This document shows positions 2,547 through 22,710 of a stretch of 23,486 nt of DNA, one piece after another (position 1 is the stretch's first letter; every line of letters begins with the position of its first letter). The position numbers and the translations under genes were made by a program. The stretch spans positions 1-23,486 of the IMG/VR virus record IMGVR_UViG_3300045741_000064; one strand, 5' to 3'. Under the pieces are notes generated by a model that saw nothing but the letters and a program-made list of their open reading frames with translations, was not told the DNA's origin and did not search any database. This stretch comes from a virus.

Positions 2547-3632
2547 ATGGCAACACGTGTAGCAACGCTGGCAACCGACGTACCGGCCCCAGTCAACTTT
2601 GTGTTGATGAAGGGTCTGTTGCAGGCTGCTCGCAAGAAACTCCCGTACTTCAACGGCACCCTTCCGGGGCAGTTGGACAAGAACGGCGGTTCCGCTTCGG
2701 TGAAGTGGGAACGCATCAACAACCTGACCGCCAATACAACGGCATTGGGCGAATTTCAGGGCAATGCGGCTTATCTCTATGGCCGTGCCCTGGTAACGCC
2801 CACGGTCTCCAACGTCACGGTGGCAATGGCGAAATACGGCCAAGCCATCCAGCTGACGGAGGAAATCGACATCTACAACGTCAATACGCGAGCCATGAAG
2901 TTCATGGACACGCTGGGCGCGAATGCGGGCGAATCGTTGAATGCCCTGATGTTTGCCGTGTACCAAGGCGCTACCAACATCCGCTATTGCAACAACGCTG
3001 CGGGTGGAGCGGCATCGCTGTCGAACGTGGCCTTTACCGTGGCTCTGACCGACATCAAGTACGCGGTGAACACGCTGAACAACAACGCGGCCATGCCTTA
3101 CACGCCGCTGGGAACCGGGTCTGTCAACATCGGAACGCTTCCGATCCGTTCGTCCTACTATGGCATCTGCCATGTGGACGTGGAGGAAGACATCCGGGGC
3201 CTAACGGGCTTTGTCGCGGTGGAGCAGTATGCAGGCTACACCGAGACCATGCCGTTCGAGTTTGGCGCGGTAGGCGGTGTTCGTTGGGCATCCACACAGG
3301 TCAGCACCATCGCTTCTCAGGCCGGCAAGAAAACCGCAACCGGCATGCGCGGCGGCTCGCAAATCCTGAACGACGTGTACGACTCCTTTATCTATGGCAA
3401 GGAAGCCATCGGTACCGTGGGTCTGGGCAACATGCATGCGGCTAACAGCTATGAGATGTACAACCCCAAGGCACCTCCGGCAGTCGAACTGATCTACAAG
3501 AATCTGGGTTCGGCGGGCGCGGGAGACCCGTTCAATGAAATCGCATCTCTGGCGTGGAAAGCCTTCTTCGCCGGGAAGATTCTGAATGCGAACTGGGTTG
3601 TGAAACTCCGCTCCACATCAGCGAAGGTGTAA
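2547..3632 (+). CDS. Major capsid protein, N4-gp56-like family
   Basis: This 361-residue product has hallmark segments of the N4-gp56-type HK97-fold capsid family. Residues 52-61 (VKWERINNLT) are the strand and basic-aromatic motif that precedes the E-loop. Residues 95-108 (AKYGQAIQLTEEID) correspond to the 'xYGxxxxLTDxI' signature at the start of the spine helix. The P-domain and A-domain follow, with CHVDVEEDIRGL near residue 209 and a Gly-rich C-terminal half. It would build the icosahedral shell. An AAGGG ribosome-binding site precedes the ATG, the scaffold-like gene is directly upstream, and a strong terminator directly follows the stop, as is usual for the most highly expressed late gene. 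Confidence 0.88.
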   Translation: MATRVATLATDVPAPVNFVLMKGLLQAARKKLPYFNGTLPGQLDKNGGSASVKWERINNLTANTTALGEFQGNAAYLYGRALVTPTVSNVTVAMAKYGQAIQLTEEIDIYNVNTRAMKFMDTLGANAGESLNALMFAVYQGATNIRYCNNAAGGAASLSNVAFTVALTDIKYAVNTLNNNAAMPYTPLGTGSVNIGTLPIRSSYYGICHVDVEEDIRGLTGFVAVEQYAGYTETMPFEFGAVGGVRWASTQVSTIASQAGKKTATGMRGGSQILNDVYDSFIYGKEAIGTVGLGNMHAANSYEMYNPKAPPAVELIYKNLGSAGAGDPFNEIASLAWKAFFAGKILNANWVVKLRSTSAKV

Positions 3633-3666: not shown

Positions 3667-4386
3667 ATGACGATCATTGTCCAGGGCTCCGGCCTTACCT
3701 TCCTCGATGCGGTCAATCGCATCCTGAGGATTCAGGGATTCATCCGTGGAGACACCGATGTACTCACTTCTTTCTCAGATACCAATCACAACGCGACCTC
3801 GAACATCTGCCAGATAGCCATCCAGTCCGAGATACAGGACTTGATGTCGAACAGCCTGCTGTCTTACGAACGGGCCACGGGCACGATCACTCTGCTTACA
3901 AGCACGCGTACCTATTCTCTCGCCAATGACTTCGTTCGTTTCTACGGCGACCCTCCATTTATCTATGACGCTACGCAGAATTATCAGATCTGGGAATACC
4001 GTGGCGGCGAAGATCAGTTGAGGAAGGAAATTCTCACCTACAAGACCGACCTCGGAGCGCCCAACTGGTATTACGACCCCAATCTCACGGTCTGGTCGGT
4101 TGGGTTTTATCCCGTTCCCGATGCGTCGGTTAACAACCGGGTATTGAGCTACGAGTACGAAAAGACCATTACCCCCGGGATAGCGACCGATCTCATGCCG
4201 TTCCAGACGCCGGACGAAACTTATGCCTTCTGCGATGCCGCAGCCCGGAGGTTCAAGTATCTGTACGAAGGGAAAAACGACATTCCCGTTTCTCAAGACC
4301 CGGTGTGGAAGGAATCCATGTCCCGGCTCATGGCGATGATGCGCGGCAAGAATCCTTCGAAGCGTTACGGCAGGGACTATGCCTGA
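3667..4386 (+). CDS. Putative head-tail adaptor / tail tubular protein A-like
   Basis: The 239-residue product begins with a helical part (FLDAVNRILRIQGFIRGD), continues with helices around residues 45-65 (AIQSEIQDLMSNSLLSYERATG), and then has alternating strands with a TRTYSLANDFVRFYG motif. That motif resembles the strand-rich middle of podovirus adaptor or tubular A proteins, where a short-period '…TYxLPxDFxR…' segment is common. The C-terminus is helical and basic (KNPSKRYGRDYA). It would sit between portal and tail. The position after the capsid gene and before a large beta-rich tail protein supports this. The ATG abuts a terminator T-run and lacks a spaced ribosome-binding site, so its expression is probably limited. 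The family call is by pattern and context. Confidence 0.6.
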   Translation: MTIIVQGSGLTFLDAVNRILRIQGFIRGDTDVLTSFSDTNHNATSNICQIAIQSEIQDLMSNSLLSYERATGTITLLTSTRTYSLANDFVRFYGDPPFIYDATQNYQIWEYRGGEDQLRKEILTYKTDLGAPNWYYDPNLTVWSVGFYPVPDASVNNRVLSYEYEKTITPGIATDLMPFQTPDETYAFCDAAARRFKYLYEGKNDIPVSQDPVWKESMSRLMAMMRGKNPSKRYGRDYA

Positions 4387-5992
4387 TCAGATAAGACCGG
4401 GTTCGAGCTTCGAACTGGTTTCGACTTTTGGATTGAATGAAAATCCAAACCCGGACATCACGGAATGCACGCAAGGTTATAACTTCGACATCGCGGTGGA
4501 TCAGACATGGTTTACCCCGCGAGACCAGTTCGACCTGAAAGGCACGGCGACCAACGCGCAGGCCATTACCGGACTGATGCAACTGCTAAAGCGCGATGGA
4601 ACCCAGACGACTCTGGTCTGCGCCGGGACGACGGTCTATCTGTGGGATGGTTCGAGCACCTGGACCTCCAAGGCGTCAGTAGCCTCGGGGTCGTTGTTGC
4701 GAGACCTCAACTGGTCGTTGGGGGATTACCTCCTGATCACCGACGTCTCGCTGCAAAACGTGTTGAAGAAGTGGGACGGGACGACGTTTTCCGATGCGCC
4801 CACCGGGTTAGGGGGCACGCCGCTCTATGCCAAATACGGCGCGGTCCATCAGAACCGGGCGTGGTTGTTCAATGTAACCTCGAATACCGCCACCCCGCAT
4901 CTGATTGTCGCCTCCACGTTCGAAGACCCGACGAACTTCAACCTGACCAATCGTGGCGGGCCGACGGCTTATGGCGGCGCGGCGTTTTCGACCGGGCTGG
5001 AGCCGTTCTACATGACGACACCGGACCTGAAACCGATCAATGGGGTGGCGGAATTTCAGAACACGCTGATCATCTCCACCCTGAACGGCAGGATGTTCCA
5101 GTTGATCGGCAGCAGCGCGAAGGACTTCCAGTGGATTGACTTTTACGATGGTTCGCCATCGGTGGGCAACGAATCCATTGCGAACATCGGCAACGATGTG
5201 ATCTTCATGCGTCAGGGCGGGCATATCAACCTCCTGTCCGCAACCCAGACCTTCGGCAATGCAAGAACGGATGAATTGACTCGCTGGCTCAGAAACACGA
5301 TTGCCAACCTGTCCGGTGCAAACCAGATCGTCTACGACATCGGCAACCAGAAAATACTGGTGTTCATTCCGAACAAGGTCATGGTGCTGTTCAAGGACTT
5401 TCTCTCGCATGACAGGTATCAGTTGAGGGACTCGAAAAGCCCGTGGAGCGTTTATACCACCCAACACCCCAGCGCCTTCAACACCCAGGCGGCGAAGTAC
5501 ATGCTGATTCCCGGAACGACGAATTACTCGGTGTTCTGGGGAGATGCCAATGGGAATGTATTCGACATGAACGGAACCGCCCAGTCGGGAGATGCCAACG
5601 TCTATCCGCTGATGTATCTGAGGCGATCCAGTCATATCGGTCCGGAGCTGTTCCAGGGACAGTGGCCATGGAACCAGAAGAACCTGGAAGGCTCCGTCGA
5701 ATATCGAAGGGTTGGGACTTCACAAGTCAATCTGACCTTCGAGTGGGATGACGAATACAACACCACGGTCAGCACCATCAACCTGAAAGGCCCGGCTGGT
5801 GGAGATTCCGCCGCGTATTTCGGGGGCAATTTCTATTTCGGCAACAGCACGTACTTCAATCAGGGCTTTACCGGAGCGCAGCGGGTTTCCGACTACGACT
5901 TCACTCCCGGAGGGAAAGGGCCTGGGTTCTATGTCAGCGTGCAATCGACAGGCACGACGTTATTCCAGATAGACAGCATCCAGATCAAATGA
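4379..5992 (+). CDS. Putative tail nozzle / stabilisation protein (beta-propeller-like)
   Basis: The 537-residue protein is almost entirely short strands with repeated turn motifs of the type TTVYLWDGSSTW, LLITDVSLQNVLKKWDG, NTLIISTLNGRMFQLIGSS and GNDVIFMRQGGHINLLS. This periodic pattern matches the beta-propeller-like body of podovirus tail nozzle or stabilisation proteins (the functional class of T7 gp12 and P22 gp10). A C-terminal beta-sandwich-like segment follows (about residues 430-537). It would be an extracellular structural part of the short tail. Its start overlaps the upstream adaptor-like gene by 8 nt, and its stop overlaps the next gene as ATGA, so it is made from the same transcript. 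Confidence 0.65.
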   Translation: MPDQIRPGSSFELVSTFGLNENPNPDITECTQGYNFDIAVDQTWFTPRDQFDLKGTATNAQAITGLMQLLKRDGTQTTLVCAGTTVYLWDGSSTWTSKASVASGSLLRDLNWSLGDYLLITDVSLQNVLKKWDGTTFSDAPTGLGGTPLYAKYGAVHQNRAWLFNVTSNTATPHLIVASTFEDPTNFNLTNRGGPTAYGGAAFSTGLEPFYMTTPDLKPINGVAEFQNTLIISTLNGRMFQLIGSSAKDFQWIDFYDGSPSVGNESIANIGNDVIFMRQGGHINLLSATQTFGNARTDELTRWLRNTIANLSGANQIVYDIGNQKILVFIPNKVMVLFKDFLSHDRYQLRDSKSPWSVYTTQHPSAFNTQAAKYMLIPGTTNYSVFWGDANGNVFDMNGTAQSGDANVYPLMYLRRSSHIGPELFQGQWPWNQKNLEGSVEYRRVGTSQVNLTFEWDDEYNTTVSTINLKGPAGGDSAAYFGGNFYFGNSTYFNQGFTGAQRVSDYDFTPGGKGPGFYVSVQSTGTTLFQIDSIQIK

Positions 5993-6749: not shown

Positions 6750-7070
6750 GTGGACTTCGAGGACTTTGCCATGGCGGTCGAGGACTGGAATGTTCATCCG
6801 GTCCGGGTCGCCGGAAAGATCGTCGGGGCGATATTGACCCACCGGGAGCAGATCCATGCCTGCATCAAGCCGGAGGCATTCGGCAAATGGGTGGGAATGA
6901 AAGAGGTCAATGTCTTGAATGACGTGATCGACAGATACGGCAGGGCAGTGACTTCCGTATCTCATGGCAACGAGGTCGGTAGAAAATTCGTGCAAGGGTT
7001 GGGTTTCTCGCTGGTGGAAATCCGTAACGGCGTGGACTGGTTTGAACTGGACAGAAAATATGGGCATTGA
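6750..7070 (+). CDS. GNAT-like N-acetyltransferase, phage type
   Basis: I chose the GTG at 6750 because it lies directly after the upstream stop, has an AGGGA site about ten bases upstream, and gives a protein starting MDFEDF; the ATG at 6690 is in frame and would add 20 residues overlapping the previous gene. The product (106 residues) shows a GNAT-like core: VHPVRVAGKIVGAILTHREQIHACI (strands 1-3), then a helix, DRYGRAVTSVSHGNEVGRKF as the acetyl-CoA-binding turn and helix, and QGLGFSLVEIRNGVDWFELDR as the terminal GF strand pair. It would transfer an acyl group to an unknown target. Two acyltransferase-like genes so close together suggest a shared task. Confidence 0.6.
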   Translation: MDFEDFAMAVEDWNVHPVRVAGKIVGAILTHREQIHACIKPEAFGKWVGMKEVNVLNDVIDRYGRAVTSVSHGNEVGRKFVQGLGFSLVEIRNGVDWFELDRKYGH

Positions 7071-7920
7071 AACTGCTGCAATAGGACTAGGAGCCGCCGG
7101 CTTATTTGCCGGCGCAGACTCGGCCAGACGATCCGCCAACATTGCCGGAGACGCCGCCAGTCAGGCCAACCAGCTTGCCTTGATGCCCAGATCCACCGGA
7201 TTATCGAACATCAATCCCCGTGGGGGCACGGTTTATATCGACCCTCGCATCCGGGCGATGCGGGAACAGTCCCTTGCCAACATCCCAGGCTATCAGCAGC
7301 AGTTGAGCGGAGCCTACGGCAATTACATGGGCCAACTGGGAGGCTTGTACAACCAACTGGGAAGCAATGCCAATCCGTTCCTGCAAGCCCAGACCGCTCC
7401 ATTGATGCAGGCGCAGGCGCAGGCATCTGGAAACCTGACCCGGGATCAGGGCATGCGAGGTATCTCAGGGTCCAGTTTCGGCGATCAGGCATTGACCAAC
7501 CTCAACACCGATTACGGACGTGCCATAGGAAATGCCGGAGCATTGGCGACACAACAGACTATCGGCGCGCAGGAAGGTCTTGCCGGTCAGATGTTCGGGG
7601 CTGCGGGCACGAATGTCGCCGCGCAGCAAGGCTTGCAAGGCCAATATGCAAGTGTTGCTAATCAGAACTTGGCGCAGGAACTATCAGCCTTGGGTCTATC
7701 ACAAGCCGACATCGGCTCCATCCTGCAAGGTGGGCAGTTGGGCGCAAGTGCACAGGCTGGCTATGGTCAAGCGATTGGTCAGGGATTGGGTTCGATGGGC
7801 CAACTCATGTACGGATTGAGTCCGTATTACCGGAATCTCGGATCGAGTACCAACGTGGGGCTGGGGCAATCGGCGAGTCTGAATACTTCCGGTCTGGGCG
7901 GATTCTGGGGGAATGAATGA
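7060..7920 (+). CDS. Putative internal virion / DNA ejection protein 1
   Basis: The ATG at 7060 overlaps the upstream stop by 11 nt and is preferred to an in-frame codon at 6964, because the extra 32 residues are only a shadow of the upstream gene. The 286-residue product begins with a hydrophobic, small-residue segment (AAIGLGAAGLFAGADSARR) that could enter a membrane. It continues as a long Ala/Gly/Gln/Asn-rich helical protein with loose repeats such as YNQLGSN, QAQAQASGN, GQMFGAAG and LQGQYASVANQN. This is the usual make-up of podovirus ejection proteins, which leave the virion and line a channel through the cell envelope. It is the first of three adjacent genes of this kind, so the call rests on composition and context. 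Confidence 0.65.
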   Translation: MGIETAAIGLGAAGLFAGADSARRSANIAGDAASQANQLALMPRSTGLSNINPRGGTVYIDPRIRAMREQSLANIPGYQQQLSGAYGNYMGQLGGLYNQLGSNANPFLQAQTAPLMQAQAQASGNLTRDQGMRGISGSSFGDQALTNLNTDYGRAIGNAGALATQQTIGAQEGLAGQMFGAAGTNVAAQQGLQGQYASVANQNLAQELSALGLSQADIGSILQGGQLGASAQAGYGQAIGQGLGSMGQLMYGLSPYYRNLGSSTNVGLGQSASLNTSGLGGFWGNE

Positions 7921-9545
7921 TGGACGACCTCAATCCTCTTGGTGCAATCGGTCTTGGACTCTCGGCGGCAGGCGGGGCGCTCAATCAGAACGTCTACAAC
8001 CAGAATGCCGATTTCTATTCGCAGCAACAAGCGCAGCGTGCGCAGAAGCAGAAATTCATCGCCGACCTCCTGACCGATCATTTTCAGAAGGGCACGCTCA
8101 ATGCGCAAGCCTATCAACAGGCCATGGCCAAGAACGGAACTCCCGTTCCGCCCATGCAACAGCCCATGGATTATGCGTCCGAAGCTGCCGATGTCATGGA
8201 GAAGTTCGACCGGCAAGAGCAGAGGCCATCGGCAGGACTTGGGCCTTCCGATGCTCTGAGAACTCCTGCTACACCTGCCTTGGACATAAAGACGGAAGGC
8301 GTGGACCAACCGAAGCCATTGGGTGTCAATGATGTGCCGATGGGCGATACCAAGGAAGTCTCCGGCATCCGCACCACGGTTTACGGACCAGAGGAAATGA
8401 ATGCCAGGATTCACGCCTATGCGGACGTATTGAAAAAAAGCGGCGGGAGTGCGAAGGAAAAACGCCAGGCGATGAACGACTTCGTAAACAAGATGAAATT
8501 GGAAAACAGCACGCAGTTGAAAGAAGCCGCGTTGCTTCAGCAGATTCATCATCAACAGGCGATGGAGGGAAAGCAGAATCGCCCAGCCATATTGCAGGAG
8601 CTGGATGAGTTGGGAAAGCTGGACCCAAAATCTCCGGCCTTCAAGATATTGCGCGACCGTGTTGTGGGTTCCACGGCGATCATGAAGACCATCGAAGCAC
8701 TTGCAGATGCAAAACATCTCAAGCCAGGCACCGAGGAACGGAACGATTTCATCAATGCGGAATTGAGCCAATGGATCAAAAAGAAAACAGGCACGACTGA
8801 GACAGTTGAACCTCTGACGCCGAAAGGACTTAAAGTTGCAGAGGAATTTATCAGGGCCAACAAACCTCTTCCTGGCGGGTGGAGCAAAACGGGACAAAGC
8901 CGCGGGAATGCCATTCTTAACAAGATGGGAGAAGACGAAGAGGGCGGGGCTGGTTCTGGCAGCATAGTGTCTGGACAGGCAACGTTCCATGCCGATCAGG
9001 CATCACTGACCAAACTCACGGCGCAATACGATAACGTAACCGCATTCGAAAAGAATGCCGGTCGCCAAGGCAAGGTATTGATGGCTCTCGGTGACAAGGT
9101 AGACAGCACGGGAACTCCCGTCATAGAGCGATGGATTCGTGGCGGCATGAAAGCCATTGGCACCCCGGATGTGGATGAATTCAATGCGCAGATGCAGATC
9201 TACCGCACGGAAGCCGCAAGGATATTGACCAATCCCAATCTTGTTGGCGTGCTGTCGGATACCGCAAGGAAAGAAGTCGAGGAGTTCATGTCCGGCAAAA
9301 TGTCAGCGGCCAGCATCAGGAGAGTGGTCAGCCGGCTCAACAACGACTTCGATGCCAGAAAGGTAACTCTGGAGCAGCAGATGGATGCTGTGACCAAAAG
9401 ACTCTCAGGAAAGCGTCGTGCGACGGACAAAATGCCAGAGATGTTCCCGCCGGAGAAGAATGCAAAAGGTTGGGTATTGCATGAGGATGCCAAGGGGAAT
9501 CGGGCTTATGTCGGTCCTAATGGCGAGGTAGAGGAAATCAAATAA
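7917..9545 (+). CDS. Putative internal virion / DNA ejection protein 2
   Basis: The 542-residue protein starts with a Gly/Ala-rich hydrophobic segment (LGAIGLGLSAAGGALNQN), then a Gln-rich helical part (YNQNADFYSQQQAQRAQKQKF) and a charged, mostly helical body. The body includes long coiled-coil-like runs near residues 160-220 and 350-480. The C-terminus (GWVLHEDAKGNRAYVGPNGEVEEIK) is a small strand-turn-strand motif seen at the ends of several phage structural proteins. No lytic transglycosylase motif is seen. It would be packed in the head and ejected with the DNA. The stop overlaps the next start (TAATG), and the start overlaps the previous stop (ATGA). Confidence 0.65.
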   Translation: MMDDLNPLGAIGLGLSAAGGALNQNVYNQNADFYSQQQAQRAQKQKFIADLLTDHFQKGTLNAQAYQQAMAKNGTPVPPMQQPMDYASEAADVMEKFDRQEQRPSAGLGPSDALRTPATPALDIKTEGVDQPKPLGVNDVPMGDTKEVSGIRTTVYGPEEMNARIHAYADVLKKSGGSAKEKRQAMNDFVNKMKLENSTQLKEAALLQQIHHQQAMEGKQNRPAILQELDELGKLDPKSPAFKILRDRVVGSTAIMKTIEALADAKHLKPGTEERNDFINAELSQWIKKKTGTTETVEPLTPKGLKVAEEFIRANKPLPGGWSKTGQSRGNAILNKMGEDEEGGAGSGSIVSGQATFHADQASLTKLTAQYDNVTAFEKNAGRQGKVLMALGDKVDSTGTPVIERWIRGGMKAIGTPDVDEFNAQMQIYRTEAARILTNPNLVGVLSDTARKEVEEFMSGKMSAASIRRVVSRLNNDFDARKVTLEQQMDAVTKRLSGKRRATDKMPEMFPPEKNAKGWVLHEDAKGNRAYVGPNGEVEEIK

Positions 9546-11314
9546 TGGCCTTCGACCTTTCCACCGCAAAGCCCGTCAGGAAGAATTCAGACCGATTCGA
9601 TGTGTCCACCGCTCGACCTGTCAGCGAAGGTCAAGAATCTTTCCTGACAAGAGAGGCTCCCGCCATCGGCGGCATGGTTGGCGGCATTGGCGGGGCGATA
9701 TTCGGTGGCGGAATTCCTGGGGGAATTGCAGGAACAGCCGCCGGGGCCTCTCTAGGGAACTTGTATCAGGACTTGCAGCGCCAAGGAACCCCACAAGCCC
9801 CGCAAACCTCTTACGAGGCAGCAAAGAAAGCCGTGGGCATTGTCGGATGGAATGTCATTGGACAAGGCGCTGGAGATGTTGCCGGGAATCTTGCCACCAG
9901 AACATTGATTGCTCCGTCTGCAAGATCATTGATTCGTCCTACGCAGGACGCCACCGAAGCGCAAAGAATCCTGCAACGTGGTGGCGGCTCCTTGTCCATG
10001 TCTCAAACGACGGAGAATCCGATGGTTCATGCCATCGAGGATATTTCCAGGGTAGGCATTACAGGAAAAGGCGTGTGGACTGCCCTTGATGCAAAAAACA
10101 AGATCGCCCTCATTGCAGAGCATGATCGAGTATTGAAGAGTTTGACATCCTTTCCGGCAGATCAGGTTCCCAAGCGAGGGGGATTGAGCTTACAGCGGGC
10201 CATCAGCGCGGGTGAAGAAGGATTCTCCAATGCCTCCAGAACGATGTATGCGGATTTGGATAAGGAAGTCCAGTTGGCGACCGGCGGACAACAAGTGGTC
10301 GATAACTCGGCGGTTAAATCATGGGCCTCCAAAGAGGCGGACAAATACATCAGAAACAATAAAGTAATTCCATCCTCATTGCAGGAAGCCATGAATCTTC
10401 CTGAATTCACCACGTTTGCTGATGCTCAATTCAACAGGACGCTCGCCCTGACAAGACAAAGAGACCTTGAGCGCGGGGTGCAGAAGGACTCCATTGCTCA
10501 TGCCTTATACCAGCAAACGCAATCAAAAATAGCCCAAAGCATGGATGAGGCGGCGGCAAAGCTTCCGGTGGACATTTACTCAAAATATCGCAGAGTTTCT
10601 GAATTCTACAAGAGGGGGAAAGACGCCTTTACCAACGACATTGTTGCGAAGGTAATGGAGAAAGACCCGGCCAGGGTTGCGGAGTATCTATTCGCAAAAG
10701 GCAACGAGAGGGAAATAGTTCAGGCCAGGACGACGCTGAGGCAGGCGGCAAAGATGGATCCGTCCATCGACTCTGCAAAAGTATGGAATAACATGCGCGC
10801 TGCCTATGTTGAAAACCTGTTGGGTACCAGGGCTGCGCAGACTACGGAAGGCGCTATAGCAGGTGAGAATGTGATGAAGACTCTCAACGAGCTAAAAGCG
10901 TCTCGTACTTTCAGGGCCGCGTTTACCGATGTCTCGCAAAGAGAATCCATTACCAAATTCCTCCAAGCCGCCTATCTCTCGCAGCGCGAACCTACAATCA
11001 AGGCATTGTCGGTTGCTGTACCGATTTTTCAGGCAGGGGCAATCGGCGGTCTGGTCGTTTATCCGTGGATGGAAGGAAGCGCGGGAACCGGAGAGTCGGC
11101 GGCAAAAGCCGTCGGCATCTTGGTCGCTCCAAGGATTCTTGCAAAAATGATGACAAGCCCACGGACGGTTAATTTATTGACAAAGGCAATGGACGTTCCT
11201 TATGGGTCGTCGATGGCAGGAGGAATATCGGCAAAGATTCTGCTGGAGCATGAAAGAATAAAACAAGAAACCGCTGTCGAAGATAGCCAGAAAAATGAGA
11301 CTTTTGCTCATTGA
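9545..11314 (+). CDS. Putative internal virion / DNA ejection protein 3 with N-terminal motif repeat
   Basis: The 589-residue product opens with two near-identical motifs, FDLSTAKPV (3-11) and FDVSTARPV (18-26). A glycine-zipper hydrophobic stretch follows (about 40-71; IGGMVGGIGGAIFGGG and GGIAGTAAG), suited to membrane insertion. The middle is a long helical, charged region, and a second hydrophobic segment lies near residues 495-515 (IFQAGAIGGLVVYPWM). Repeats of the D-x-STAKPV type occur at the N-termini of phage virion proteins (recalled). The layout fits an ejection protein that is threaded through the tail and spans the envelope. The last 20 nt overlap the ATP-grasp gene. Confidence 0.65.
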   Translation: MAFDLSTAKPVRKNSDRFDVSTARPVSEGQESFLTREAPAIGGMVGGIGGAIFGGGIPGGIAGTAAGASLGNLYQDLQRQGTPQAPQTSYEAAKKAVGIVGWNVIGQGAGDVAGNLATRTLIAPSARSLIRPTQDATEAQRILQRGGGSLSMSQTTENPMVHAIEDISRVGITGKGVWTALDAKNKIALIAEHDRVLKSLTSFPADQVPKRGGLSLQRAISAGEEGFSNASRTMYADLDKEVQLATGGQQVVDNSAVKSWASKEADKYIRNNKVIPSSLQEAMNLPEFTTFADAQFNRTLALTRQRDLERGVQKDSIAHALYQQTQSKIAQSMDEAAAKLPVDIYSKYRRVSEFYKRGKDAFTNDIVAKVMEKDPARVAEYLFAKGNEREIVQARTTLRQAAKMDPSIDSAKVWNNMRAAYVENLLGTRAAQTTEGAIAGENVMKTLNELKASRTFRAAFTDVSQRESITKFLQAAYLSQREPTIKALSVAVPIFQAGAIGGLVVYPWMEGSAGTGESAAKAVGILVAPRILAKMMTSPRTVNLLTKAMDVPYGSSMAGGISAKILLEHERIKQETAVEDSQKNETFAH

Positions 11315-12614
11315 CTCCGATGGCAATGCTTTGGACCTAGCCCTCAGGACATTGGCCTACGGCCATGAGGTCAAGTGGTTCGTCTCCAATCACAAGGACG
11401 GCACGCCTTCCAAGGTCGGTCTAGGTCTGGTAGAGCGCATCTCCGACTGGGAGAAGTGGATGCAATGGGCGGACTGCATCTTCCTCACTGGGAACGACAA
11501 GTACATCGACCGGCTGGAAGACTTTCGAAAACTCGGCTATCCGATATTCGGTCCATCGAAGGCATCCGCCCAACTGGAAATCAATCGCCAGATCGGCATG
11601 AAGAGCCTGGAGAAGTTCGGCATTCAATGTCCGCCGTACAAGTCGTTTTCATCGTTCGATGATGCTGAGCGGCACGTCTGGAAGACCGAAGGCAGGTATG
11701 TATTCAAGACACTCGGAGACGAAGAGGACAAGTCCATGTCCTACGTTTCCAAAACGCCAGCGGACATGATCAACAAGATTCGTGAGTGGAAGAAGAACGG
11801 TTCGAAGCTCAAGGGTCAGTGCATGTTGCAGGACTACGTTTCCGGCATAGAGATGGGCGTGTCCTGCTGGTTCTCGCCGAAAATGGGATTTGGTCAGTGG
11901 AAGAACATCAACTTCGAGCACAAGAAATTAATGTCAGGCAACTTCGGGCCAAATACCGGAGAGCAGGGCACGGTCATGCAGTACACAAAGAAGGATAAGC
12001 TCTTCGACAAAGTACTCAAGCCGCTGGAATCGTTCCTGGGTCAACTGGGTCATGTCGGGGACATCGACGTGGGCTGCATCATTGATGAATCCGGCAAACC
12101 GTGGCCGCTGGAGTTCACTGCAAGGGCGGGATGGCCAGCCTTCTACATCATGCAGCGCGAACATATCGGCGATCCTCTGACATGGATGATCGACCTCATG
12201 GATGGCAAGGATACATTGGACGTTACCCAGGAGGTTGCTGTGGGCTACGTGCTCACCCAACCGGAATATCCCTATACCACCGACAAGAACATGCGCTCCG
12301 TGGGAAATCCGATCTACGGAATCACCGATGAGAACTGGGACCACATCCACCCTGCCGACATGATGAAAGGAAAGGCGGTGGACATGAAGAACGATCATCC
12401 TGCGGAACAGGATATGTTCGTGTCCTCGGGAGAATATGCTTTGGTGATTTCAGGGCTGGGAGATACGGTGAGAAAGGCCATCAAGGACGCCAAGAAAGTG
12501 GTAGATGAAATCTGCCTCTCCGATGGGCAGATACGCGACGACATCGGGGAGGAACTGGAAGAGCAATTGCCGATCCTTCATTCGCACGGGTACGCTATGA
12601 GCATGGAATACTGA
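11295..12614 (+). CDS. PurD-like ATP-grasp ligase
   Basis: The 439-residue length equals that of GAR synthetase (PurD, about 430). The landmarks are in PurD order: an N-domain beginning MRLLLIDSDGNALDLALRTL, GPSKASAQLE (86-95, the same turn as in PurD), the ATP-grasp strand VFKTLGD (136-142), LQDYVSGIEMGVS (178-190), GNFGPNTGEQGT (215-226, equivalent to the TGPNTGGMG loop), and WPLEFTARAGWP (270-281, equivalent to the EFNxRFGDPE metal site). PurD joins glycine to phosphoribosylamine with ATP. Here the metal-binding Asn of EFN is Thr275, and the adenine-side loop is reduced, so the substrate may differ. It lies between ejection-protein and tail-fibre genes, which is not a nucleotide-metabolism context. 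The ATP-grasp ligase call is firm; GAR synthetase activity is not. Confidence 0.8.
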   Translation: MRLLLIDSDGNALDLALRTLAYGHEVKWFVSNHKDGTPSKVGLGLVERISDWEKWMQWADCIFLTGNDKYIDRLEDFRKLGYPIFGPSKASAQLEINRQIGMKSLEKFGIQCPPYKSFSSFDDAERHVWKTEGRYVFKTLGDEEDKSMSYVSKTPADMINKIREWKKNGSKLKGQCMLQDYVSGIEMGVSCWFSPKMGFGQWKNINFEHKKLMSGNFGPNTGEQGTVMQYTKKDKLFDKVLKPLESFLGQLGHVGDIDVGCIIDESGKPWPLEFTARAGWPAFYIMQREHIGDPLTWMIDLMDGKDTLDVTQEVAVGYVLTQPEYPYTTDKNMRSVGNPIYGITDENWDHIHPADMMKGKAVDMKNDHPAEQDMFVSSGEYALVISGLGDTVRKAIKDAKKVVDEICLSDGQIRDDIGEELEEQLPILHSHGYAMSMEY

Positions 12615-12615
12615 C

Positions 12616-14007
12616 ATGGGAACGAAATACTCCAACACGACGGTCTCCGGATACAATGCATCTCCGCCTCCCGACGATGGATCCACGACCGCCTCCAACA
12701 AGATCAACTGGGCGACCATCAAGCAGAAGCTCTCGGACCCGCTCAACAGCTTCGATACTGCCATCAATTCCGCGCTGCTGAATGCGCTGGATACTTCAAG
12801 CAACAACATCACCGGCACCTACGCAACCATTGCCTCGGACAATGCTCGGACGCTGCAATGCTCCGGGACGTTTACCGTGTCTCTTGGAGATGCTGCGACC
12901 ATGGGACAGGGTTGGTGGTGCAACATCGTCAACGTCGGATCAGGGACGATTACGATAGGCAGGGCCACAGGCGGGAATACGATAGCCGGAGTCGCGGCAA
13001 ATATCACGCTCGCGCCTTTGCAGGCCACCACCGTCATCGTCAATCAAGCCAATAACGGCTTCAACCTGACGGACTGCAACAGCCTGATTGTCGATAACAC
13101 CGACCCAACCAAGCAGGTCCGGTTCGATGCCAGCGCACTCACGACCGGGACAACTACGGCTCTCAAGGTCTCCGTCGCGCAGCAGATAGAAACCCAGCAA
13201 GGGGCGAATATCGCTTCCGCCTCCACGATCAACCTGGATACTGCCACGGGAAGCTATGTCCATGTGACGGGCACCACGGACATCACTGCGGTAACGTTGG
13301 CGCAGGGCAGGATCAGAACCGTTGTATTCGACGGCGTGTTGAACTTAACCAACGGAGCCAGTCTTATCCTTCCGCCGGCAGGAAACATCCGTACCATAGC
13401 CGGAGATGTAGCGATATTCGCCGGAGAGGCGGCAGGGGTAGTCAGGTGTGTCTCCTACCAGCGTGCCGCACCAGTCGCCTTCCTTGCCAAGAAAACCCTG
13501 ACCGGGGCAAGCTGCATATTCACGACCGAATTCGACTGGTCTACGTTTGACTATTACGAGTTCGTTCTTTACCGTGCCGTTCCTGCCAATAATGGCGCGG
13601 TCATAGACTGCTCGTTAAGCGAGGACGCGGGCTCTACCTATCTCGGCGGGACCAACTACAGCTATCAGGCGACCAGCACAAGCTCCGGCGGAACAACACG
13701 AACCATCTCCGGCAACAGCACGAATGTCTTCCGCTTCCCGGAAATAGCAGCACAAGGCATAAGCAATTCTGCCACCAATAATGGCTTTAATGGCCGAGTT
13801 ACATTGTGGGCACCGAGTTCCACGCTGAGAAAACAGATGAACCTGTCGGACATGAGCTATTTTCCGGGGGCCACGGACAACTCGGCTTCCGGTTATGGCG
13901 GCGCAATGGTTATCAGCACGGCAGCCGTGACTGGAATCAAGTTCGCTCCCAGCACGGGCAACTGGACTTCCGGAACCATCTCAGTCTTCGGCCATAAGGC
14001 TTCCTGA
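12616..14007 (+). CDS. Tail fibre-like protein
   Basis: The 463-residue protein begins with a short polar segment (YSNTTVSGYNASPPPDDGS) followed by a helix (NKINWATIKQKLSDPLNSFDTAINSALL). Several beta-rich modules follow. Residues about 85-150 have a WCNIVNVGSGTITI strand repeat, and residues about 205-280 (STINLDTATGSYVHVTGTTDITAV…) are a module widely shared among phage fibres, where a Val-rich strand leads to a gas- or ligand-like hydrophobic core. The C-terminal half is Ser/Thr/Gly-rich with aromatic strands, as in host-recognition domains. It would attach to the tail and touch the cell surface. The gene starts 1 nt after the ATP-grasp stop and its stop overlaps the tailspike start (TGATG). 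Confidence 0.75.
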   Translation: MGTKYSNTTVSGYNASPPPDDGSTTASNKINWATIKQKLSDPLNSFDTAINSALLNALDTSSNNITGTYATIASDNARTLQCSGTFTVSLGDAATMGQGWWCNIVNVGSGTITIGRATGGNTIAGVAANITLAPLQATTVIVNQANNGFNLTDCNSLIVDNTDPTKQVRFDASALTTGTTTALKVSVAQQIETQQGANIASASTINLDTATGSYVHVTGTTDITAVTLAQGRIRTVVFDGVLNLTNGASLILPPAGNIRTIAGDVAIFAGEAAGVVRCVSYQRAAPVAFLAKKTLTGASCIFTTEFDWSTFDYYEFVLYRAVPANNGAVIDCSLSEDAGSTYLGGTNYSYQATSTSSGGTTRTISGNSTNVFRFPEIAAQGISNSATNNGFNGRVTLWAPSSTLRKQMNLSDMSYFPGATDNSASGYGGAMVISTAAVTGIKFAPSTGNWTSGTISVFGHKAS

Positions 14008-15590
14008 TGCAACAATACGCCAACAATATCGAGGACAACGCGCACAACGCGGTTATCGGCGCGTCCATCCAGATTTATCTGGGCGGCACGACGACGGCTG
14101 CAAGCCTGTTCTCCGACTCCGGCGGGGTAACGCCGAAAACCAATCCGTTGACCTCAGACTCGGGTGGCAATTTCTCCCTCTATGCGGCGGACGGCACTTA
14201 CGACGGCGTAATCACCAAGATCGGCATCACGACCAAGACATTCACCTTTACGCTGGATTCCACGACGCAGTTCGTTACCACGACCGCACTTGCCGCCTCC
14301 TCCGGAGCCTCGTTGGCGGGGTTCATCCAGAGCGGGGCGGGAGCGGTAGCAAGAACAGTACAGAGCAAAAGCCGGGATATTTTTAACGCCTTCGACTATA
14401 TTCCAGTTGCCGATAACGCGGCCATTACCGCCGGGACCAGCACGGTTGATGAGGCGTCGCATATCATGGCGGCATTAGCGGCCTTGCCCGCCAGTGGCGG
14501 GATGGTCGAATTGCCTGCCGGGCAGATCCAGATCAATTCATCGATCACCCTATCCCGGGGACAACATCTTGTTGGAAGGGGATTCAGCGCGGCTTCGGGC
14601 GTTAACCGGGGCACGACCTTTCTCAAGCATGGAAACTTCGATGGATTGATCATCTCCGCGCCTGAATGTGGTTTGCATAACCTCGGCATTCGCGGAGACG
14701 CCGGAAACGGTGGGGACGGCATTTACATCAAAGGCCCCGACTTCGTCCTGGAAGGCGTTTCAAGCACCGATCATGGCGGCGTGGGCTTGCGTGTGGGAGA
14801 CAAGACAGCCGCCAGTAATAGTTCCAATTCTGGCATAGCGAAGTCAGTTCACTTGATTGGTAATACCTCCCATGGTCTTTTGATTCTTGACGCCAATGCC
14901 GGCCCTAACGCGAATGTCGGTATCTACGAGGGCGTGGATTCCCGATCCAACGGCGGGGATGGAATCCAGGTCGGCAATGCACTGGACAACGTGTTTATTC
15001 TTCCTGTCTGCGAAACCAACACAGGTTATGGAATTCACCTGGCGACAGGAGCGAACGGTCAGGAAATCCTCTTTCCCTATACGGAAGCCAACGTGACTTC
15101 CGACATTATTTTCGATGCCGGGACCAATCGAAATACGCTCTTCGGGGTTCGATACGGATTTGCAACCGTCACAGACAACGGGACCGACAATACCCTCATC
15201 ACCAGGGTGAGCAATATCACCGGCTGCCTCCAGTTCATCAATCTCTGGCTGCAAAACATGAATGTCAACAACGGCAGCGCCGCCGGAAAGCTCGTCCTTT
15301 CTCAAACGGGCGTCGGGGCTTATTTGTTCCGCCACAGCGGAGCCAGTCAGATAGCAACGACGACCTTCGACAATCCCGGGTTTACGCATCAGGTCAAGGT
15401 GGACGGCGTGATCCTGACTGCTGCGGCCAATTCGGGACAGGTGGCCGCGGGTCAGGTGATGTTCGGATCAACGCATCAGACTACGATAGGCGCCAATGGG
15501 GCGGCAAGCGCACTAACGGCGAATCCGGTCGGATACCTGAAAATATCCGTTGATGGTGCCGATAAAATTATTCCCTACTATAACGCATGA
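14007..15590 (+). CDS. Tailspike with right-handed beta-helix
   Basis: Residues 1-100 form a compact beta domain (NIEDNAHNAVIGASIQIYL, FSDSGGVTPKTNPLTSDSGG), typical of a virion-attachment module. Residues about 130-400 form a right-handed beta-helix of the pectate-lyase type: it opens with an ELPAGQIQINSSITL motif, then repeats turns such as HNLGIRGDAGNGGDGIYIKG, LEGVSSTDHGGVGLRVG and NGGDGIQVGNALDNVFIL. Spikes of this kind bind, and often cleave, surface polysaccharide. Catalytic acids cannot be assigned, although Asp-rich turns line the helix. A C-terminal beta domain closes the protein. It forms the host-range module with the upstream fibre gene, so both may change rapidly. Confidence 0.8.
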   Translation: MQQYANNIEDNAHNAVIGASIQIYLGGTTTAASLFSDSGGVTPKTNPLTSDSGGNFSLYAADGTYDGVITKIGITTKTFTFTLDSTTQFVTTTALAASSGASLAGFIQSGAGAVARTVQSKSRDIFNAFDYIPVADNAAITAGTSTVDEASHIMAALAALPASGGMVELPAGQIQINSSITLSRGQHLVGRGFSAASGVNRGTTFLKHGNFDGLIISAPECGLHNLGIRGDAGNGGDGIYIKGPDFVLEGVSSTDHGGVGLRVGDKTAASNSSNSGIAKSVHLIGNTSHGLLILDANAGPNANVGIYEGVDSRSNGGDGIQVGNALDNVFILPVCETNTGYGIHLATGANGQEILFPYTEANVTSDIIFDAGTNRNTLFGVRYGFATVTDNGTDNTLITRVSNITGCLQFINLWLQNMNVNNGSAAGKLVLSQTGVGAYLFRHSGASQIATTTFDNPGFTHQVKVDGVILTAAANSGQVAAGQVMFGSTHQTTIGANGAASALTANPVGYLKISVDGADKIIPYYNA

Positions 15591-16024
15591 ACCTCTCCGA
15601 ACACTTCACCCTTGAGGAAATGACGGTCTCCGAATCCGCCGAGAGACTGGGCATTTCCAACGAGCCGACGCCGGCCATCATCGCCAGACTCACCTTCACG
15701 GCAACGCAGATGGAGAAGGTCCGCAACCTCCTTGGCAAACCGATTTCGGTCAACTCGGGCTATCGCAGCCCAGAACTGAATGCCGCCATCGGCGGGGCTC
15801 CTACCTCGCAGCATACCAAGGGCGAGGCATGCGATTTCATCTGTCCCGCCTTCGGAACACCCAAGGACATTGCGAGGCTTTTGCAGATGAACTGGAACGA
15901 GCTTCAGTACGACCAGTTGATCTTCGAAGGGTCTTGGGTGCATGTGTCCTTTGTGGAGGATAGCCAGCCACGCGGGGATGTTCTGACTTGGACCAGGGCG
16001 GCGGGATACACGAAAGGAATTTAA
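15587..16024 (+). CDS. Endolysin, peptidase M15 (D-Ala-D-Ala carboxypeptidase-like)
   Basis: The 145-residue product matches the M15A/VanY-like zinc peptidases. The zinc ligands are visible in the family spacing: His76 and Asp83 in SQHTKGEACDF, and His119 in WVHVSF, with a GYRSPELNAAIGG substrate-loop motif (58-70) before them. It would cleave cross-links or the D-Ala end of peptidoglycan. There is no signal peptide, so it needs a holin to reach the wall; small membrane-protein genes follow at once. The ATG overlaps the tailspike stop (ATGA). Length and motif order are normal. Confidence 0.9.
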   Translation: MNLSEHFTLEEMTVSESAERLGISNEPTPAIIARLTFTATQMEKVRNLLGKPISVNSGYRSPELNAAIGGAPTSQHTKGEACDFICPAFGTPKDIARLLQMNWNELQYDQLIFEGSWVHVSFVEDSQPRGDVLTWTRAAGYTKGI

Positions 16025-17638: not shown

Positions 17639-17847
17639 TGGGAGCCGCCGAAGCTATCGTCATGCTGGCGAACCTGACCAGCGCCGCAATTCAACTGTTG
17701 CAGAACTCGCAACTAGTAAGCGGAATGATCCAGAAAGCAACCGCTGAGAACCGCAACTTCACGCCCGAGGAATGGGCGCAGATTGTGTCCTTGGATGACA
17801 CGGCCCGCATTACTCTCGCGCTCGCTATCAAGAAGGCGGGAGGGTGA
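17638..17847 (+). CDS. Small helical protein of unknown function
   Basis: This start overlaps the lipoprotein stop (TAATG), with GAGGAG about eight bases upstream. The 69-residue product is predicted to be fully helical, with a hydrophobic first helix (AAEAIVMLANLTSAAIQLLQNS). This helix is too amphipathic for a clear TM segment. An NRNFTPEEWAQIVSLDDTARITLALAI segment follows. The FTPEEW turn resembles small helical caps seen in several phage proteins. No role is recognised. Its stop overlaps the GTG of the next gene. Confidence 0.6.
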   Translation: MGAAEAIVMLANLTSAAIQLLQNSQLVSGMIQKATAENRNFTPEEWAQIVSLDDTARITLALAIKKAGG

Positions 17848-20855: not shown

Positions 20856-21016
20856 TTCTTCAGTTTGTTGCGTTCTCGCATTTGTTCTAGCCGTTTTTCT
20901 CTGCGCTGCCCAGGAGTCAAATGATCATCGGCACCGTATACGCGCATGCAGAAATGAACAAAGGAGATGTTCTTCGGCCTTGGTGGTCTGGGGGGCCGGA
21001 AAAGATCAAGCAGCAT
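20852..21016 (-). CDS. Small Pro/Arg-rich protein between ERF and NinB
   Basis: The ATG at 21016 overlaps the end of the ERF gene by 11 nt, with GGAGG seven bases upstream, and the stop overlaps the ninB start (ATGA). The 54-residue product reads MLLDLFRPPRPPRPK, then NISFVHFCMRVYGADDHLTP, and a basic helix GQRREKRLEQMRERNKLKK. Proline/arginine repeats followed by a basic helix suggest binding to nucleic acid or a partner protein, possibly ERF or NinB. No family is recognised. Coupled starts on both sides support translation. Confidence 0.6.
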   Translation of the reverse strand: MLLDLFRPPRPPRPKNISFVHFCMRVYGADDHLTPGQRREKRLEQMRERNKLKK

Positions 21017-21743
21017 TCGCCGCCTCCGTTGCTTGTCCCGCTTTCTTGATCCCGCTCCTAGTCTTGGAGTCCAGCAACGACCATAGCGCCGTTACTTCGC
21101 GTTCGTCGGCATCTTTTTTGAATGCTGTCCAGGAACCTAAAGCCGCTTTCGCCCCGATGGTCAGGAAGTCGCCCATGATCCGCATGGCTTCTATCCGTAA
21201 TGCCTTGACCATCTCCGGGGTCATGCCGTCGATGGAGAGTTCGGTGTCCACTATCTGGCCGGGAGTTTCCTGTTTTGTAATTGTCGTTTGAGTTACAACG
21301 CCGTCAGGGCCGCTGATTTGGAATCCCTCCGTGGCAACCTTTTTCGGAGGATTCTTCGCTGCCGCATTTCCATCGTCATCCTCAGGAGCCACACCAAAGG
21401 CCGCGGACAAGCCATACCTGCGAGCGTAGGTCATGGCCGACCCGAACCCCTGTGCGTCAGCCTTGCTCACTGGGACGCTTACAGCGCCGCAGGAAAGCCA
21501 CTCCCCGGAGTTATGCAAAATTAGGGTTTCAATCTTTGCGGAGTTATCCGAGTCGTGGGCAATTTGCACATAAGACAGGCCATGGACTGCCAGCGGCCCC
21601 CGTATAGCCTCTACAACACTGGAAAGGTCCGCGTATTTGCTCTTGAAGAACGGGTTGGCCGAGTCCTTCAGGGCACCCTTGATCTCCCCCTGTGCTTTCG
21701 CTAACGCGGTTGCCAGTTCCTTGATGCTCTCCGACTTTTCCAT
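21006..21743 (-). CDS. erf: ERF-family single-strand annealing protein
   Basis: The 245-residue product has the ERF family core: ALAKAQGEIKGALKDSANPFFKSKYADLSSV (14-43), VHGLSYVQIA (53-62), and the signature FGSAMTYARRYGLSAAFGVAPEDDDGNAA (100-128). ERF forms rings on single-stranded DNA and anneals strands during genome circularisation or repair, as in P22. The C-terminal third after residue 150 is less conserved and likely contacts other proteins. GGGAGATGG lies about five bases before the ATG. It is upstream of ninB and the HNH gene in the same transcript. Confidence 0.9.
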   Translation of the reverse strand: MEKSESIKELATALAKAQGEIKGALKDSANPFFKSKYADLSSVVEAIRGPLAVHGLSYVQIAHDSDNSAKIETLILHNSGEWLSCGAVSVPVSKADAQGFGSAMTYARRYGLSAAFGVAPEDDDGNAAAKNPPKKVATEGFQISGPDGVVTQTTITKQETPGQIVDTELSIDGMTPEMVKALRIEAMRIMGDFLTIGAKAALGSWTAFKKDADEREVTALWSLLDSKTRSGIKKAGQATEAANAA

Positions 21744-22068: not shown

Positions 22069-22710
22069 TTATCTAACCAACTGATGATTGAATGGAGGAT
22101 CGCGGTCAACCTCGATGTCATATCTTTCTTCTTCCATGAAAGGATTTCCCCACTGTTCAGCCATTGCTTTTGCGATTCCTGGGAATGTCCTGCTGGCAAT
22201 CCGTGCGCGTTCTTCTTTTCTAGTCCCGGAAGTAATGTGAGACCATGCGGACATCCTTGCGCCGTTTGCCTTTGTATAGAACTTTCCACGGCCAACTACA
22301 TTCGTTGGAACCAATGGAGGAAGGTTCTTCAGCCATAGGCATGTCGGCTTGTTTGCTTCATGCCCGAACTGCCACGGCTGGATTAGTTGGTCTGCCTTCC
22401 TAATCCTTGTTCCAATGCACCCAACTGGGTTTTCGATAGCGATGCGATGAATGTTCGATTGCATAAGTATCTGCGGAATCCGCTCGGGCCTTTTCTTGTT
22501 CCACCATAGGCCCATGCTGCAAAGGTAGGTACAAGGAGGAAAAGCAATCATCAAATCCCACTTATCAGTTAACCTAAAAGCTACGTTATCTTGGATGTGA
22601 GGCCCTGGGCGTTCACTCGGAATCAGGTCACAGGAATAAGCATCATGTCCTTCTGCTAAAAAAGCGTCCCTAACAATCCCCGAGAACTCGCACGCAACCA
22701 AAACCCGCAT
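22069..22710 (-). CDS. C5-cytosine DNA methyltransferase-like protein
   Basis: The 213-residue product has C5-methyltransferase landmarks: motif I ACEFSGIVRDAF (6-17), the motif II acidic end SCDL (26-29), motif IV FPPCTYL (57-63) with nucleophile Cys60, and motif VI-like AIENPVG (91-97). It would methylate cytosine in phage DNA, perhaps to resist host restriction. It is much shorter than bacterial enzymes and lacks a clear target-recognition domain. The spacing from PPC to ENP (about 33 residues) is tight compared with the similar small phage enzymes I recall. A hairpin and GGAGGG leader precede its ATG. Confidence 0.75.
   Translation of the reverse strand: MRVLVACEFSGIVRDAFLAEGHDAYSCDLIPSERPGPHIQDNVAFRLTDKWDLMIAFPPCTYLCSMGLWWNKKRPERIPQILMQSNIHRIAIENPVGCIGTRIRKADQLIQPWQFGHEANKPTCLWLKNLPPLVPTNVVGRGKFYTKANGARMSAWSHITSGTRKEERARIASRTFPGIAKAMAEQWGNPFMEEERYDIEVDRDPPFNHQLVR

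Follow-up and report, generated by a model that had tools for sequence, protein, structure and literature searches.

What does a gene resembling purD do among the virion genes of a phage? The window, by which we mean the whole stretch analysed, is an IMG/VR virus record of 23,486 bases with a late virion operon on the plus strand. The operon holds genes for a major head protein (2547..3632; phrog_1357, E = 6e-34), an SU10_adaptor-like adaptor (3667-4386) and, judged by position, a connector/stabilisation-type protein (4379-5992). Three further genes precede the ligase gene: an Ala/Gly/Gln-rich internal-type protein of 318 aa in third place upstream (6964..7920), a protein of 542 aa in second place (7917..9545), whose family is common to 35 loci, and a protein of 589 aa immediately upstream (9545..11314). 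The PurD-like ATP-grasp ligase gene itself (11295..12614, plus strand) opens with ATG and encodes 439 aa; it is followed by two fibre/spike-type genes (12616..15590; 463 and 527 aa), the second with a weak tail-spike match, and by an endolysin gene (15587..16024; phrog_894, E = 6e-39) that ends the late block. A first-pass annotation reported that the ligase gene overlaps its upstream neighbour (9545-11314) by 20 nt and is separated by 1 nt from the gene at 12616, and both statements are correct. So is the place that it gave to the ligase gene, between ejection and fibre genes, with the term 'ejection' being a label by position alone (past the connector and before the fibre genes); no family model named the genes upstream of the ligase labelled ejection-type. 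The AlphaFold model of the 542-aa protein is mostly helical, but its pLDDT of 64.8 is too low to support a search by fold.

The likeness of the 439-aa protein to PurD is far from chance, since it matches PurD structures at E = 2e-20 (phmmer). All three motifs previously read in PurD order, GPSKASAQLE, GNFGPNTGEQGT and EFTARAGWP, are found in it. Structure prediction and superposition, proposed earlier as a check, gave an AlphaFold model with a pLDDT of 94.6 (59-sequence alignment) whose closest solved structure is PurD 2yw2 (Z = 36.9, 393 residues aligned). The top 13 solved-structure matches are all PurD (Z 31.5-36.9); PurT, PurK and PylC, which have the same superfamily fold, rank next with a far weaker match (Z about 23-24, about 10-14% identity). 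The model thus predicts a complete, full-length PurD fold. By contrast, the PurD equivalog model (TIGR00877) gives the protein 69.3 bits against a cut-off of 288, in a setting where all 14 control genomes give a match and 13 of them exceed the cut-off, and the Pfam GARS domains stay under their gathering thresholds. The databases supply no name for the protein, because PHROGs has no family for it and BFVD yielded no PurD-like viral structure (best TM <=0.45 among the top matches).

The window ligase belongs to a paralogue family of PurD with members in phages, prophages, bacteria and archaea. We define this family here by the signature TGE[MQ]GT ... E[FW]TxRxG[WY]P and by a clade apart from PurD; the window ligase carries the signature and falls within the clade. 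In PurD, ATP is bound by K103, K143, E185, E192 and K214, glycine by D212, R287 and E292, and Mg by E100 (PMC8880213, Bacillus-type numbering). These positions were mapped onto the window ligase through the PurD alignment, and conservation was read from 61 family members (27 viral, 11 prophage and 23 cellular) set against 26 PurD sequences.

On the ATP side, K143, E192, K214 and E100 of PurD align with K138, E186, K210 and E95, and the glycine-carboxylate arginine R287 aligns with R277. Within the family R277 is invariant, and E95, K138, K146, E186, K210 and E273 are invariant or nearly so. Three further swaps are invariant in the family: K103 to R98, E185 to Q179 and, at the glycine site, D212 to E208. 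Along the gene, E95-x-x-R98 (11577..11588) pairs the equivalent of the Mg-binding Glu with an Arg in place of the ATP Lys103; K138 to K146 (11706..11732) spans the ATP Lys and the nucleotide-side loop; Q179 and E186 (11829..11852) form the ATP-binding pair; and EHKK (11916..11927; DHKR in PurD) holds E208 and K210. The nucleotide-side loop had been described as reduced, which is wrong: it is as long as in PurD, K138-K146 aligning without gaps with the Lys-to-Lys stretch (144 to 152 in Listeria), and what has changed is its composition, GLAAGKG having become GDEEDKS with the glycines lost and the Lys kept. Loss of the ATP-binding residues, which the first-pass annotation had named as a sign of inactivity, is not seen; they are kept or conservatively swapped. 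The basic residues R98, K138 and K210, the acidic residues E95, E186 and E273, and the fold together place the protein in the ATP-grasp superfamily.

The glycine side is different. TGEQGT (11955..11972) replaces the PurD motif TGGMGA and is the family signature, with Glu223 in place of an invariant Gly. EFTARAGWP (12111..12137), compared with EFNxRxGDP of PurD by motif and family alignment, keeps the metal Glu (E273) and the glycine-carboxylate Arg, has Thr for Asn and Trp for Asp, and lacks the Glu that follows. Thr275, which takes the place of PurD N285, had been noted from the window alone; Thr occupies this position in all 61 family members and Asn, within EFN or EYN, in all 26 PurD sequences. 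The Asp of GDPE (PurD Asp290) is Trp or Tyr in nearly all family members, and the R[LF]GDPE motif (PROSITE PS00184) is absent, its Asp replaced and its following Glu gone in 61/61 members. The ATP side is therefore preserved, with conservative swaps, whereas the residues for the amino group of glycine are altered or lost and their pocket is rebuilt. The protein therefore shares with PurD (TIGR00877; PDB 2yw2, 2xcl, 1gso) its fold, domain order, ATP/metal scaffold, carboxylate Arg and the C-domain motif R-x-D-I-G (RDDIG, 12534..12548), and differs from it in its TGE[MQ]GT, EFT and G[WY]P motifs, its clade and its place in a virion operon. By analogy with PurT and PurK, the arginine of R-x-D-I-G may contact a substrate phosphate.

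In an approximate maximum-likelihood tree built from 87 sequences, the viral, prophage and cellular relatives group together, and a branch 2.06 substitutions per site long (support 0.99) divides them from the 26 PurD sequences; close clustering with bacterial PurD, which would have pointed to a plain acquired purine gene, is not seen. Within the family, a deep divergence lies between the viral and the cellular sequences; the cellular group has a support of 1.0, and a group of all sequences from viruses and prophages is only weakly supported (0.159). The cellular relatives are 29-34% identical to the window ligase and sporadic in distribution (Acidobacteria, Omnitrophota, Patescibacteria, Nanoarchaeota, haloarchaea and others), with a member in 5 of the 149 genomes of one phylum sampled. 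True PurD is also present in 21 of the 26 member-carrying genomes, scoring 396-585 bits where the members themselves score 65-122; its absence from the other five is uninformative, since small or draft genomes are among them. Cultured Paraburkholderia and Glaciimonas carry family members in prophages. In the literature on 'PurD-like' proteins we found only a 2011 archaeal note, whose authors judged that rrnAC0307 and Hlac_1553, two haloarchaeal 'extra PurD-like' proteins without the GDPE Asp, are not GAR synthetases (PMC3261824). They resemble our family, by description rather than by sequence comparison, in standing beside a true PurD and in having lost that Asp, and differ in being chromosomal archaeal genes with no function assigned to them, described with no phage branch or late-operon position. 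A haloarchaeal locus in our cellular clade (L195, Halorarius) likewise lacks the GDPE Asp. The phage branch fixed in a late operon appears to have been undescribed so far.

Could the gene nonetheless be a phage GAR synthetase, an auxiliary purine gene that boosts purine supply during replication? PurD is its best structural match and has the same fold, the C-terminal R-x-D-I-G is conserved, and purD/GART is counted among virus-encoded auxiliary purine genes in published viral surveys. Against this stand the miss of every PurD cut-off, the family-wide changes at the glycine site and the separate clade on a long supported branch. Furthermore, three prophage hosts (G001, G002, G004) each have a PurD of their own, 19 viral records with lengths of 37-63 kb all lack PurF, and the gene sits among late genes, not replication genes. 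We therefore consider it unlikely that the protein is a GAR synthetase with a purine-supply role. It is highly probable that the window ligase is a non-GARS ligase of the TGEMGT/EFT PurD-paralogue family, and the annotation 'purD' for this late phage gene is probably wrong.

The position of the gene among related phages bears on its role. A profile scan of IMG/VR recovered 310 related viral stretches. So as not to condition on the ligase gene, contigs were also fetched with two connector-protein baits, which were narrower sequence sets (the 13-sequence connector profile being too diverse for scanning). The ligase gene is present in 36/37 and 26/26 of the bait contigs with >=7 kb downstream of the bait, lying, where present, 4.2-8.5 kb downstream; these counts describe the lineage of the baits only, because the baits were derived from ligase-bearing loci. 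The survey of phage genomes for a ligase gene beside ejection and fibre genes, which the first-pass annotation had recommended, thus found it after the last ejection-type gene and ahead of the fibre gene in 62 of the 63 bait contigs showing the slot, a figure that applies to one lineage, not all podoviruses, and includes some contigs common to the profile-scan set. Coupling to the upstream gene is tight: a co-directional gene ends between -30 and +10 nt of the ligase start in 100 of the 106 loci with >=2 kb upstream of the ligase gene, and a 4-nt stop/start overlap occurs in 79 of 129 loci. Close pairs have dN/dS values of 0.03-0.17 where dS is finite, with some dS values near saturation, which indicates purifying selection. 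In one locus, L263:11406-19590, the whole connector-ejection-fibre module is present with no PurD-like gene: an 873-aa gene stops at 17745 and the fibre gene starts at the next base, 17746; this clean absence, a natural null, shows that the ligase gene is dispensable there.

Two explanations can be weighed on these data. The first is that the gene was acquired recently as an accessory gene and stands by chance at a tail-fibre hot spot, as its patchiness in cells (5/149 genomes of the phylum above), its absence from L263 and two divergent loci (L059 and L063) with the ligase gene within other virion-module layouts might suggest. Occupation of a single slot in nearly all informative contigs, despite an identity of only 42-54% between the window protein and diverse members, and the deep divergence of viral from cellular sequences make this quite improbable. 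The second is that the protein is a dead enzyme retained as a structural part of the virion or as an assembly factor. Its place among virion genes and the changes in the metal Asn and glycine site would fit; yet the ATP-binding residues are retained, stand-alone cellular relatives outside virion operons have the identical invariant active-site residues, and L263 lacks the gene although the neighbouring virion genes are present, so that we regard a dead enzyme as very improbable.

Our preferred reading, to which we assign a probability of about 0.6, is that the gene encodes a predicted active ATP-grasp carboxylate-amine ligase, other than GAR synthetase, that acts on a late product rather than on purine supply. 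Its computed basis is the PurD fold, the ATP and metal residues, the changed glycine site, a clade with cellular members and the fixed coupling to the late operon. Given the altered active site, the ligase probably couples another acid and amine, late in infection. In the proposed mechanism, a carboxylic acid would be held by Arg277 (PurD Arg287) and phosphorylated by ATP-Mg, and an amine would then attack the acyl phosphate to yield an amide. Glycine is probably not the acid, given the loss of Glu292, the change of Asp290 to Trp or Tyr and of Asp212 to Glu, and the newly gained Glu223; conservation of R-x-D-I-G at the C terminus suggests that the amine partner may still bear a phosphate. The metal-ligand change from Asn to Thr could weaken catalysis. 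The first-pass claim of a PurD-like ATP-grasp ligase in the virion operon is thus borne out, and its proposal of substrates other than glycine and phosphoribosylamine holds as probable.

The ligase would be produced late in infection alongside the ejection and fibre proteins, and its target is more likely to be a late product than the purine pool, most likely a virion peptide or protein, or a small molecule used in assembly or lysis. An enzyme packaged in the virion, ejected with the neighbouring ejection proteins and active at the start of infection, would account for the fixed slot right behind the last ejection-type gene and for the usual stop/start overlap. We consider packaging unlikely: the protein has no added domain or extension compared with its cellular relatives, co-expression by itself is not enough to demonstrate packaging, and the gene is cleanly lost in L263. 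Returning to a ligase acting on a late product, a more specific form is that this so far uncharacterised, PurD-related amide-ligase family of bacteria, archaea and phages, fixed near-universally and late in a large podovirus-like lineage, puts a new covalent modification on virion proteins, whether of ejection or fibre type, or is itself delivered along with these, accompanied in some relatives by a GNAT and an Asp/Asn beta-hydroxylase; we put this forward tentatively, as possible but doubtful.

Neighbouring genes offer clues to partners. A nanoarchaeal paralogue (L190:9144-10949) carries a GNAT domain fused at its C terminus (Acetyltransf_1, E = 1.3e-8), the next gene in three proteobacterial loci is a GNAT (Acetyltransf_6) with a 4-nt overlap, a woesearchaeon has a GNAT gene 29 nt after the paralogue, and small GNATs follow it in three Bacteroidetes/Flavobacteriaceae loci. 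A phage GNAT family lies upstream of the ligase, mostly four genes away, in 26/73 loci; these phage GNATs are not closely related to the cellular ones. An Asp/Asn beta-hydroxylase-like family (cluster 15; L021:5094-5828) is found in the late operon in 20/73 loci; this is an unusual location for a protein-modifying enzyme. These GNAT and hydroxylase neighbours are best read as associations, not proof. Over 69 loci, cellular relatives show no conserved operon save for the GNATs in a minority, and a phosphoribosyltransferase-domain gene and a DeoC-like aldolase gene lie downstream of the paralogue in three acidobacterial loci only (L162, L175 and L209). The acyltransferase partner suggested by the first-pass annotation gains some support from the GNAT fusions and operons of relatives and from the upstream GNAT in about one-third of related phages, whereas no homologue of the phage GNAT could be detected in the window phage. 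The link to glycosyl- and methyltransferases suggested with it finds no support in the loci of relatives, where the corresponding position lies beyond most of the fetched 10-kb flanks. Glycosyltransferase-like (phrog_12406) and methyltransferase-like (phrog_6636) genes lie upstream of the head genes, at 2-1246 of the window.

A phage-encoded ATP-grasp ligase with a proposed role in amide-bond formation is also known from the amidoligase/ATP-grasp/GATase peptide modules (Iyer et al. 2009; found in PA11, LUZ24-like UFV-P2, phiRIO-1 and phiM6). The UFV-P2 ATP-grasp protein has 291 aa and is encoded in the early region with amidoligase and glutamine amidotransferase genes, whereas the window ligase is a 439-aa PurD-type protein of the late virion block, with no amidoligase or glutamine amidotransferase among the first 25 neighbour families of the tally (the window being a fragment).

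An apparent 'purD auxiliary metabolic gene' thus becomes a likely different enzyme, and the two-motif test (TGE[MQ]GT/EFT versus TGGMGA/EFN) can be used on viral and metagenome annotations. The analysis pinpoints a late gene that is present almost without exception in a widespread lineage of little-known tailed phages, represented by hundreds of contigs; the Paraburkholderia and Glaciimonas prophages and the naturally gene-less L263 offer systems for testing its function. GNAT fusions and operons give a clue to the cellular relatives, which the 2011 note had recorded in haloarchaea without explaining them.

In INPHARED, the metagenome-derived MW202796 is the only phage-like record with the ligase. 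All other matches that were examined proved to be bacterial purD genes, mostly beside purH, and not phage homologues, so that the records concerned, filed as phages (AFYI01000006, CAKLQH020000004, OR845008, OQ572412, MT838306, MT837288 and OR848139; loci L131-L137), contain bacterial DNA. On the minus strand of the window lie genes for an Erf-like annealing protein (21006-21743) and a DNA methyltransferase (22069-22710; phrog_757), which probably belong to the early/replication arm of the phage.
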